Source: a virus. Taken from it: 30,848 nucleotides of DNA. A program made the position numbers and the translations under genes. The notes below the pieces were generated by a model. It was not told where the DNA came from. It saw only the letters and a program-made list of their open reading frames with translations, and searched no databases. The stretch covers positions 1-30,848 of IMG/VR virus record IMGVR_UViG_3300033984_000073; one strand, given 5' to 3'. Of the stretch, positions 15,826 through 17,895 are shown in pieces. Position 1 is the first letter of the stretch, and the number at the start of each line of letters is the position of its first letter.

Positions 15826-15911
15826 CTTGTTACTTCTTAAATTCTTGAATGACTCACTATACTAATTACTCTAGAGAATAGATCTTGAGCTAAAGTGAGA
15901 GATAGAAGTAT

Positions 15912-15940
15912 CCAAGCACACTAATTTCTTAATGTGTTGG
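15912..15940 (-). other. RNA hairpin with GAAA loop
   Basis: On the minus strand CCAACACATTAA pairs with TTAGTGTGCTTGG around a GAAA tetraloop, giving about 12 bp with one G-T wobble and a single bulged C. It sits in the leader upstream of the 76-residue gene, five bases after the stop of the small split gene. It may be an mRNA stability or processing element. Confidence 0.45.
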
Positions 15941-15944
15941 ACGC

Positions 15945-16103
15945 TCACTTTTGCGATGTAATCACTCTGTCGAATGAGTCTTTTCGCTTTCGTGTCCTAA
16001 CGTGAACAGCAATGTCCGTTAGTCTGGAATCTATCTTTCGAAGAAGTGCCTCTCCGTGTGTCGTATGGCTTATTCCTTTGTCATACCATTGGGCTAATAA
16101 CAC
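15945..16103 (-). CDS. possible small gene, second frame, 52 aa
   Basis: A GTG at 16101-16103 opens 52 residues with protein-like composition (LAQWYDKGISHTTHGEALLR, then DIAVHVRTRKRKDSFDRV). No ATG exists in the frame, and the open stretch extends 5' into the overlap with the frame of the 31-residue ORF. It could be the second half of a gene read through a +1 frameshift, the end of a decayed gene, or translated from GTG. It is too short for standard gene calling. Confidence 0.4.
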   Translation of the reverse strand: MLLAQWYDKGISHTTHGEALLRKIDSRLTDIAVHVRTRKRKDSFDRVITSQK

Positions 16104-16176
16104 AATCCCACAGTTGCCCTTGTTCGTCTTTTATCCTGCCGTTTAATACTCCCGACGATAAAAAATATACCCCCAA
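16081..16176 (-). CDS. possible small gene, first frame, 31 aa
   Basis: A TTG at 16174-16176 opens 31 residues (NGRIKDEQGQLWDCVISP is the convincing part). The stop at 16081 falls where the overlapping +1 frame continues with QWYDKGIS. Joining both frames gives one smooth protein of about 78 residues. The TTG lies inside the 3' strand of the candidate pseudoknot, so translation could depend on RNA folding. Real coding is uncertain. Confidence 0.35.
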   Translation of the reverse strand: MGVYFLSSGVLNGRIKDEQGQLWDCVISPMV

Positions 16177-16230
16177 TTGTTCTCAGCCGTCAAGCAAAAA
16201 CAAAAGGGGGCAATAACTAAAATGCTTGAC
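16170..16230 (-). ncRNA. candidate 5'-terminal RNA pseudoknot
   Basis: On the minus strand GTCAAGCA (16230-16223) pairs with TGCTTGAC (16196-16189). The loop carries CCCCC (16210-16206), which can pair with GGGGG (16174-16170) downstream, extended by one G-T and one A-T pair. This is an H-type pseudoknot starting at about the predicted transcript end. It could be a 5' leader switch or a transcript-protecting structure. Folding was done by eye. Confidence 0.45.
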
Positions 16231-16234
16231 TATA

Positions 16235-16242
16235 CAAATATA
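16235..16242 (-). promoter_or_regulatory. -7 promoter box, minus strand
   Basis: A perfect TATATTTG (TAnnTTTG) reads 16242 to 16235 on the minus strand in a non-coding gap. A TTTG lies 25 bases upstream, longer than ideal. The expected start point, a few bases downstream, coincides with the 5' arm of the candidate pseudoknot. It would drive the 15.8-14.1 kb small genes and perhaps the structural block. Confidence 0.5.
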
Positions 16243-16282: not shown

Positions 16283-16723
16283 TTAATTGTTCAAATCAAC
16301 ATCGACGTCTTTCATTGATTCAAGAAACGTATTGATGTCTTTCTTCACGCAAGGCGGACACGTTGAACGCTCATTAAACGCTCCTGTGGCTTTATCCTTG
16401 AACTTATAAAACTTCAGCATATCATTTTGCTCCAAACGTCCTTGCGCCTTCATATCGAGAAGGAAACGTTTGAACTCTATTTGTTCGTCCATTGAAAGAA
16501 CACCGTTCCATTTTGACGCTGGACAAGAAGCGAAGGCAAGCTTTGCTTTTATCGGCATCACACAACCGCAAAGTTTGATTGACTTCTTGCGGAATAGAAC
16601 TTCGGTTTCTACTTCGTCGCCAACAATCAACGATCCGCAAGACTGCGTTGAGGGTTCGAAGAATTTACAGGTGCGACAAATCTCTAGTCGTCGCTTATAC
16701 TCATTTGATTTTGCGAATAACAT
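16283..16723 (-). CDS. Cys-rich zinc-binding-type protein, 146 aa
   Basis: This 146-residue protein has two Cys groups: CRTCKFFEPSTQSCG near residues 16-30 and LCGCVMPIKAKLAFASCPAS near 51-70. They are likely one or two zinc sites. A helical middle is followed by CPPCVKKDINTFL near the C-terminus. This family is frequent in Bacteroidetes phages with no known function. The start overlaps the end of the sigma-like gene by 23 bases. Confidence 0.6.
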   Translation of the reverse strand: MLFAKSNEYKRRLEICRTCKFFEPSTQSCGSLIVGDEVETEVLFRKKSIKLCGCVMPIKAKLAFASCPASKWNGVLSMDEQIEFKRFLLDMKAQGRLEQNDMLKFYKFKDKATGAFNERSTCPPCVKKDINTFLESMKDVDVDLNN

Positions 16724-17204
16724 TTGCTCTTATTTTAGTTTTTATAGAATCTATTGTGCGGTATAAAAATACCGTTGGTATTCCTGTTTGTTTGGAGAAC
16801 TCGCGGTAGGTGAAACCTTCGAATATGTATTCCTGAAAGATTAAGCGTTCAAACTCGGTTAACCTACTTATAAGAATATCCAGTTGCTCGTTTGTCATTC
16901 GTGCGCCTAGCCAAGTCTTGTCGACTTCGTGCGCGTATTCTTTGAAGTCGCGACGGTTTCTGTTCCAGGCGATTGTTTGGCGGTAAAATGGCGACGTTGG
17001 ACTATTTACGGCTAAGTACATAACGCGAATAAGATAAAACTCAAAGTCGCCTGTTTCGATTAGGTTCTCGATATGCTTCGAACCAAACATAGAAAGCAAA
17101 GAATCGTGAAGCAAGTCTTCATAGTAAGGTTCGCCTCGCGAAATGTTCTTCGCAAGTTCTTTGAAACGTTTATAGTTACCTTCTATGTATTTGTCAAGTG
17201 TCAA
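16701..17204 (-). CDS. sigma-70-like (region 2/4) regulator, 167 aa
   Basis: This 167-residue protein resembles short ECF-type sigma factors. YYEDLLHDSLLSMF (27-40) matches the region 2 helix. Residues 113-160 form a region 4-like helix-turn-helix (LTEFERLIFQEYIFEGFTYR, then EFSKQTGIPTVFLYRTIDSI). It may direct host RNA polymerase to phage promoters, or be a terminase- or ArpU-like regulator using the same fold. It is the second gene of the minus unit, ahead of the structural genes, which fits a middle/late regulator. Region 2 looks reduced, so DNA-melting ability is uncertain. Confidence 0.6.
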   Translation of the reverse strand: MTLDKYIEGNYKRFKELAKNISRGEPYYEDLLHDSLLSMFGSKHIENLIETGDFEFYLIRVMYLAVNSPTSPFYRQTIAWNRNRRDFKEYAHEVDKTWLGARMTNEQLDILISRLTEFERLIFQEYIFEGFTYREFSKQTGIPTVFLYRTIDSIKTKIRANVIRKIK

Positions 17205-17650: not shown

Positions 17651-17680
17651 TTGCGTATTCAAAAGTTTAGCATATATTTG
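17651..17680 (+). promoter_or_regulatory. early promoter, plus strand
   Basis: TTG at 17651-17653, a 19-base spacer and a perfect TATATTTG at 17673-17680 match the Bacteroidetes -33/-7 consensus. It lies in the divergent region between the nuclease gene and the first plus-strand gene, whose ATG is 36 bases downstream. It is the best-supported promoter of the window and would start the early unit. Confidence 0.75.
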
Positions 17681-17715: not shown

Positions 17716-17895
17716 ATGAAAACAACATTTAACATCAACACAAAGATTCAAGTAGAAGTAGAAGTTTCAGAAGGTAACGTATTCATTAGAGTAACAACTG
17801 ACATTGACAAAAGAAGTTATTTTTACGAAACAATAAGCGAAGCAATTCAAAACACTTGTATCGTTCCAGTTCAAAAATATCTTTTATCAATCTAA
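17716..17895 (+). CDS. small early protein, 59 aa
   Basis: This is the first gene after the early promoter, 59 residues (MKTTFNINTKIQVEVEVSEG at the start). It is a beta-rich, Val/Thr-rich soluble protein with an A-rich leader. First-transcribed small proteins often act on the host. The function is not recognised. Confidence 0.6.
   Translation: MKTTFNINTKIQVEVEVSEGNVFIRVTTDIDKRSYFYETISEAIQNTCIVPVQKYLLSI

Follow-up and report, generated by a model that had tools for sequence, protein, structure and literature searches.

A compact element on the minus strand of this viral DNA, placed ahead of the phage late genes, combines a promoter box, two crossing RNA helices (S1 and S2) and a U-tract. With moderate confidence, we read it from its sequence as a promoter-proximal attenuator of the late operon, in which read-through would feed the virion genes. 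The box, both helices, the U-tract, their position and a competing apical pair are established at the level of sequence and comparison with relatives. A promoter-proximal terminator before phage late genes is already known; what differs here is that the loop of the putative terminator pairs with the expected 5' end of the transcript. The first-pass annotation had proposed a promoter box directly followed by an RNA pseudoknot, and covariation in relatives supports this proposal. It missed the full length of S2, a helix that continues beyond CCCCC/GGGGG and runs into the U-tract, and with it the likely intrinsic terminator. Nor did it see that S1 coincides with the expected +1, that late genes follow, or that the sequence downstream comes as one of two alternative modules.

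The element and its genomic setting

The window, by which we mean the whole virus record of 30,848 bases, carries on its minus strand genes for a VRR-nuclease, a sigma-like protein and a Cys-rich protein, and then a 457-base gap that holds the element. On the 3' side of the gap lies a long run of minus-strand genes with family matches to tape measure, tail fibre, head protease, endolysin and portal proteins. The portal and endolysin genes sit at the other end of the record, and if the record is circular, all these minus-strand genes would form one late operon. The element thus stands after the conserved Cys-rich gene and faces the late (virion) genes. The features are listed below, with columns referring to alignment A1 of 38 distinct elements.

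17673-17680, plus strand: early promoter box TATATTTG
17611-17201, minus strand: VRR-nuclease gene, by Pfam search
16701-17204, minus strand: gene for the sigma-factor-like protein (phrog_1740, E 2.2e-9)
16283-16723, minus strand: gene for the conserved Cys-rich protein, just upstream of the element; zinc-finger-like by eye
16235-16242, minus strand: -7 box TATATTTG of the late promoter; a box stands at this spacing (4-5 nt) ahead of S1 in all 77 homologous elements
16223-16230, minus strand: S1 5' arm GUCAAGCA (GTCAAGCA in DNA), columns 1-8
16206-16210, minus strand: S2 lower 5' strand CCCCC, columns 23-27; CG/UG/UA at 26-61, CCCCU/AGGGG in L069
16198-16203, minus strand: S2 upper 5' strand UUGUUU, columns 30-35; at 32-55, GC in 31 and AU in 7
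16189-16196, minus strand: S1 3' arm UGCUUGAC (TGCTTGAC in DNA), inside the apical loop of the terminator hairpin, columns 38-45
16186-16195, minus strand: alternative apical mini-stem (16195/16194 with 16186/16187), which excludes S1 pairs 6-40 and 7-39
16177-16182, minus strand: S2 upper 3' strand GAACAA, columns 52-57
16170-16174, minus strand: S2 lower 3' strand GGGGG, columns 60-64
16160-16169, minus strand: U-tract UAUAUUUUUU of the likely intrinsic terminator; its first 1-3 bases extend the stem in relatives
16081-16176, minus strand: 31-codon TTG frame with TTG at 16176-16174; length not conserved, probably no gene
15826-16159, minus strand: module A, a leader segment with a frameshifted open-frame remnant, by comparison with relatives

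The sigma-like protein (17204-16701) is a candidate late sigma factor. It is short, its AlphaFold model has a mean pLDDT of 78, and its Foldseek neighbours are mainly sigma factors, mostly of the ECF type, the best at E 0.02 and none at E 0.001. The Cys-rich protein matches no Pfam family at E 0.001, its AlphaFold model is poor (mean pLDDT 58.6), and a search of the genome collection returned four weak hits (Lachnospiraceae, Butyrivibrio and a Clostridia bin). The element pattern itself had zero exact matches in that collection. By terminase alone, the nearest named phages are Flavobacterium phage 11b (50% identity) and Cellulophaga phage phi10:1 (47% identity), and the phage group with the element probably infects Bacteroidota.

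Divergent early genes begin on the plus strand at 17716, with their box at 17673. The leader GTCAAACAATTAACAAC that follows this box (17673-17680) recurs in many relatives, and the early transcript likewise starts near GUCAA. The early leaders show no such structure as that of the element by eye.

Promoter box, pseudoknot and likely terminator hairpin

The perfect box claimed earlier at 16242-16235 on the minus strand is present and is kept in the elements of relatives. While TANNTTTG occurs in the window at chance frequency (34 seen vs 33.3 expected), it is found at this place in 75 of the 77 collected elements, the full box being TATATTTG in 60, TATTTTTG in 8, TATCTTTG in 7 and TATATTCG in 2. 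The box lies 4 nt before S1 in 63/77 elements and 5 nt before it in 14/77. In F. johnsoniae, many such boxes end 4 or 5 nt ahead of the transcription start, according to PMC6847099, and since the two spacings are equal, S1 would open at +1 or adjoining it. Position 16230 should be the +1 nucleotide, with the pseudoknot opening at the predicted 5' end. Box and spacing fit a Bacteroidota sigma-A promoter, with +1 as a predicted position. A -33 TTG element is absent in the window, and TTG stands 18-23 nt before the box in 29 of the 77 elements; the -33 motif is weak in F. johnsoniae too (PMC6847099). We also considered and rejected a sigma70-type promoter within the element (TTGACG-18-TATATT): S1, S2 and the U-tract account for its bases, and the sequence of the tract is variable.

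The pairings proposed for the pseudoknot are both present. Exactly as first described, GTCAAGCA (16230-16223) can form a full helix with TGCTTGAC (16196-16189) across a gap of 26 bases, and CCCCC (16210-16206) in the loop can pair with GGGGG (16174-16170), a pairing that is kept across relatives. In S2, a UU/UU internal loop, invariant in A1, precedes the upper 5' strand UUGUUU, which is replaced by UUAUUU in some relatives. With 0-1 unpaired nt between the S2 and S1 strands, 11-14 nt in L1 and 5-6 nt in L3, the loop lengths appear to suit an H-type pseudoknot, and the two crossing helices show the covariation expected of one, the per-pair test being not significant. Folded by itself, the 71-nt stretch that begins at the expected start and includes the U-tract gives a nested MFE of -23.8 kcal/mol with a z score of -4.06, and 1 of 200 dinucleotide shuffles folded as well. 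The view of the whole 404-nt leader as a single structured RNA (z -3.99) was discarded: module A alone gives z -1.81, with 7/100 shuffles as good, so that much of the leader's folding signal comes from the pseudoknot element. In Rfam 15, no hit reached the gathering score for the window and ten relatives; sub-threshold scores were 26.6 of 65 bits for mir-96, 28.2 of 49.4 for Betaproteobacteria-1 and 19.8 of 56 for sau-5949.

S2 leads straight into TATATTTTTT, TTATTTTTTT or TATTTTTTT in relatives (one T more or less in some). The 1-3 extra pairs at the base of the stem vary jointly with the first bases of the tract, being UAA/UUA in 11/38 distinct elements and UA in the other types. RNAalifold, which is unable to draw pseudoknots, recovers the S2 hairpin alone and unaided. 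This hairpin also ranks first of 16 terminator-like hairpins in a scan of the window that permitted one 2x2 internal loop, a setting chosen with the S2 hairpin already in view. A GC-rich stem directly before a U-tract is thus found in the sequence, and the element likely contains an intrinsic terminator about 70 nt after the start. Hairpins with GGGGG and a U-tract occur in other virus contigs too.

The apical loop of this hairpin can be used in two ways. In the mini-stem, pair 40-47 is CG in 25 and UA in 13 and is paired in 38/38, and 39-48 is paired in 35/38. Column 40 pairs either with 6 in S1 or with 47 in the apical stem, and in L030 the 40-47 pair is kept and 6-40 is lost. Triple covariation of 6, 40 and 47 suggests two exclusive states, and a few evolutionary events may explain it. 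The energies are close, the nested hairpin with the full apical stem (-23.8 kcal/mol) being about equal to the sum of S1 and S2 (-10.6 and -14.9, before loop cost).

In the attenuator reading, host RNA polymerase would initiate at 16230, and the first eight nucleotides would pair with the apical loop of the terminator hairpin, giving the H-type pseudoknot. The hairpin, with 11 pairs plus 1-3 at its base and ending in the U-tract, would stop much transcription at about +70 and release a short RNA whose 5' nucleotide and 3' end lie close to or inside helices. The late genes would be reached by polymerases that read through, under a presumed regulation and perhaps with the help of some factor. 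Given that the pseudoknot and the 2-pair apical stem would be mutually exclusive, the 5' end could tune termination.

Covariation of the two helices among relatives

The Cys-rich protein as query returned 126 related stretches, of which 80 were kept, and the downstream 76-aa protein returned 16. Among these 80, the pattern detects the element in 64 loci; L069 has a variant form of it, the sequence of L014 breaks off inside it, and 14 loci are without the element there. In total, 77 elements were collected, 38 of them distinct (the window's own copy is counted and the truncated L089 excluded; L014, L089 and L093 are truncated). They are not equal to 77 phages, because loci overlap and several come from one contig. 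The collecting pattern demanded an intact GRGGG, so that L069 and L083 escaped it; blastn showed both. An element-wide pattern scan of IMG/VR contigs gave 79 stretches, and such patterns fix several paired bases and are thus unable to show the loss of those pairs. Wherever the pattern and the Cys-rich protein match share a stretch, the pattern starts 68-83 nt past the match, and stretches lacking the gene begin near the element; the one exception, L202, has the look of a chance match. Within the reach of the pattern, the element thus belongs to this phage group.

Across A1, 721 of 722 base-pair cells are paired. The sole broken cell is that of L030, whose two arms look drawn from two element types. 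Both sides have changed in S1 at pairs 2-44 (UA/CG), 6-40 (GC/AU), 7-39 (CG/UG/UA) and 8-38 (AU/GC/CG), and in S2 at 26-61 (CG/UG/UA) and 32-55 (GC/AU). The covariation score of 0.262 compares with a shuffled mean of 0.144 (0/500 as high) and reaches at most 0.108 when the structure is slid. Of the five measures computed, three exceed every one of the 500 shuffles. The other two do not: the count of pairs changed on both sides was equalled in 61/500 and that of pair types in 402/500.

We further compared A1 with a null simulation of 500 runs, in which the consensus served as root and the columns evolved independently along the inferred tree; the simulated paired columns varied somewhat more than the real ones (18.0 vs 15). 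For S1, the simulated unpaired cells had a median of 43 and a minimum of 11, against 1 observed, and the observed 49 double-change cells were reached in 0/500 simulations. For S2, all 500 simulations contained at least one unpaired cell against none observed, and the double-change count was reached in 30/500, so that the support for S2 rests more on its intactness. The S1 5' arm exists in ten distinct forms, and 11 of the 12 arm combinations are fully matched (permutation mean 4.8, maximum 9 in 10,000 permutations), which shows that selection acts on S1 itself. Five sequences outside A1, found with a pattern that left the outer S1 bases and two S2 pairs free and scored on S1 and the lower five S2 pairs, keep S1 at 8/8 and the lower S2 at 5/5. 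L069 and L083 contribute a new compensatory double change, CCCCT/AGGGG, in the lower S2.

Substitutions that break both stems without compensation had been named by the first-pass annotation as evidence that would count against the structure; the relatives show the opposite, with pairing kept through both-side changes. It had also suggested a covariance search. Aggregate pairing beats the nulls, whereas in an R-scape-like test no structure pair reached E < 0.05: pairs 40-47, 8-38, 2-44, 6-40 and 32-55 scored from 0.11 to 1.8 in this short, shallow alignment, and 7-39 and 26-61 gave no signal. The six top-scoring non-neighbour column pairs in that test are nonetheless structure pairs or members of the 6-40-47 triple.

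These data bear on two other explanations. The element could be an ordinary terminator whose task is to insulate the late genes against transcription from the nuclease/sigma/Cys-rich operon, with S1 doing no more than protecting the 5' end of whatever starts here. In stretches that contain both, its S2 strand starts 68-83 nt past the Cys-rich protein match, where an operon terminator belongs. We nevertheless consider this reading improbable, since the box stands 4-5 nt before S1 in 77/77 collected elements (as TANNTTTG in 75) and a kept box between gene and terminator defeats a mere insulator; the ten 5' arms and 11/12 matched combinations, indicative of selection on S1, also speak against it. 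Alternatively, the inverted repeat could act in the DNA as an operator for a dimeric repressor beside the promoter. It has 8-bp arms with centres 34 bp apart and begins at the expected +1, as an operator might, yet U-G occurs at 7-39 in 12/38 and at 26-61 in 11/38, which makes good RNA pairs and broken palindromes. With the second helix and the U-tract left unexplained as well, we rejected this reading as very improbable.

Downstream sequence, proposed read-through and known systems

After the U-tract, the 76 forward elements continue into module B (46) or module A (29, the window's type), and in one case the contig ends. The two modules are also informative about the TTG that overlaps GGGGG, which the first-pass annotation took as a start codon buried in the structure and opening a small reading frame. 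The frame exists in the window with 31 codons, and in L075 it is shared with the module A remnant and has 70 codons, so a translated leader encoding a regulatory small protein could be envisaged. Its length over the 77 elements, however, ranges from 5 to 70 codons: among the 46 elements with module B, 38 have a frame of 7 or 8 codons and the others one of 5 to 31, and in the 29 module A elements it has 11, 18, 31 or 70 codons (18 in 17, 31 in 8). TTA replaces TTG in L069 and L083, and the start would be placed at a stable helix. With its length not conserved and TTG lost in L069, we rejected TTG as a start codon; the buried start finds no support, and a translated leader is the least credible of the explanations weighed here.

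Module B combines long invariant stretches with a covarying hairpin (GCCCTTTTAAGGGC, GCTCTTTTAAGAGC, GCTTCTTATGAAGC), which, placed before a U-rich tract, is perhaps a second terminator. It forms a leader RNA of about 100 nt (L006:6601-6705 and 38 other distinct sequences, alignment A5), in which CCTTCGTAAGTCANAGCGAAGTAA is invariant in 39/39; searches of named phages and, at gathering score, of Rfam gave no match to it. Module A seems to hold a broken gene, the frame ..DEQGQLWDCVKAQWYDKGISHTTHGEA.. (L075:4206-4397; in the window at 16103-15945 and upstream). It is interrupted by shifts of 1-2 bases at differing places in 19 aligned alleles and resembles helix-turn-helix phage proteins by eye only; the module A frames searched match no Pfam or PHROG family at E 1. 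Module A relatives are 62-98% identical in 33 loci.

In 14 of the 80 loci the Cys-rich gene is kept and the element is missing there, with an antisense gene instead (order checked in 6/14). The element is thus not essential to this phage type, nor is the Cys-rich protein its dedicated partner, and for the same reason we discarded this protein as a dedicated antiterminator. Twelve of the 14 loci (L034:7031-7101 and 11 similar) have another crossing helix pair by eye before gene 15241, UUGCCCC/GGGGCAA and ACUCGUUAA/UUAACGAGU, with no U-tract and an apparent compensatory change in L057/L079. In L045 / L161 (contig 3300020044_005470), two blocks of sigma, Cys-rich gene and element face each other across gene 15241, the result of a chimeric assembly or an inversion.

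The next sense-strand TANNTTTG in the window lies 14.4 kb past the element, and 26 of 51 distinct 3-kb downstream stretches contain none, so that read-through looks needed for the late genes. Together with the likely terminator about 70 nt after the box, these missing boxes make read-through control the best reading. Against it, 25/51 downstream stretches do have a box, and weak or non-consensus promoters could bypass read-through. A further point against it is that S1 and the full terminator can coexist, unlike the antiterminator in a classical attenuator. The confidence that we assign to each competing explanation is a matter of judgement.

The main rival, ranked after the attenuator and followed by the insulator, is an autonomous small RNA: a stable pseudoknotted RNA of about 70 nt that acts in trans, possibly on host polymerase, a nuclease or another RNA, with the late genes using other promoters. 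We regard it as possible, if unlikely. Box and terminator enclose the pseudoknot alone, and downstream consensus boxes are available in those 25/51 stretches (TTG plus box in 8/51). The predicted 5'-terminal base takes part in the first base pair. In E. coli, RppH acts preferentially on 5' termini that are single-stranded, and a 5'-terminal helix hinders 5'-end-dependent decay (PMC3997798); with its expected 5' base paired, the RNA should therefore be stable. As in E. coli 5'-terminal stem protection, the predicted 5' end sits in a helix, but the partner strand here is the loop of a terminator hairpin. On the other hand, no conserved unpaired seed is seen: L1 differs among elements in both length and sequence, and apart from the U-tract the invariant columns are confined to helices or the UU/UU loop. 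The 14.4 kb without TANNTTTG downstream in the window and the lack of covariation by eye between early leaders and S1 also argue against it. Pairing of the S1 3' arm in trans with the 5' end of the early mRNA (GUCAAACAAUU) was rejected, as it shows no covariation with S1 type by eye.

Returning to the attenuator, several known systems offer comparison. The put RNA of phage HK022, a structured RNA that acts in cis close to where a phage operon starts, renders polymerase terminator-resistant; the element is likewise structured and close to an operon start, but itself looks like a terminator. In the lambdoid late leader, Q lets polymerase read through a terminator cassette (PMC6266700). Like lambdoid pR'/tR'/Q, our element would place a late promoter and then an intrinsic terminator ahead of the late genes, with regulatory genes just upstream, an arrangement found here in sequence only. 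In contrast, its terminator is pseudoknotted with the 5' end and lies about 70 nt from the start, and its promoter is of the Bacteroidota type. Pfam and PHROGs gave no Q-family match for any of the Cys-rich, sigma-like and nuclease proteins. The lambdoid late leader is the nearest functional precedent found (PMC6266700 and PMC4604602). The nearest architectural precedent found is the HMP-PP (thiS) riboswitch, described in PMC6478431 as a compact intrinsic terminator whose loop is conserved to an unusual degree and may form a pseudoknot; on ligand, the pseudoknot state breaks up the terminator stem close to the U run. A compact terminator and a pseudoknot would be common to both, whereas in our element the pseudoknot leaves room for the terminator stem, since it joins the loop to the expected 5' end, and no ligand is suspected. 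The element gives no Rfam gathering-score match, and phage late genes lie downstream of it, not a thiamin context.

The +1 end of the nascent RNA might even regulate its own terminator, loop pairing versus apical stem setting both read-through and the life of the short RNA, a proposal that we make tentatively and with low confidence. Among related phages the two arms have diverged together as matching pairs, possibly to keep each RNA responsive to itself alone. Among the papers listed by searches of the open-access literature, none dealt with pseudoknotted phage late leaders or with Bacteroidota phage late control, which is weak evidence of absence; judged by titles and the opening lines of abstracts, late-gene timing in Bacteroidota phages seems little described. 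The element offers a model of promoter-proximal termination that can be tested directly, with the first nucleotide of the transcript belonging to the terminator fold. It is also a small, well-delimited RNA suited to structural studies, has no Rfam 15 match and comes from a phage group seen in many metagenomes.
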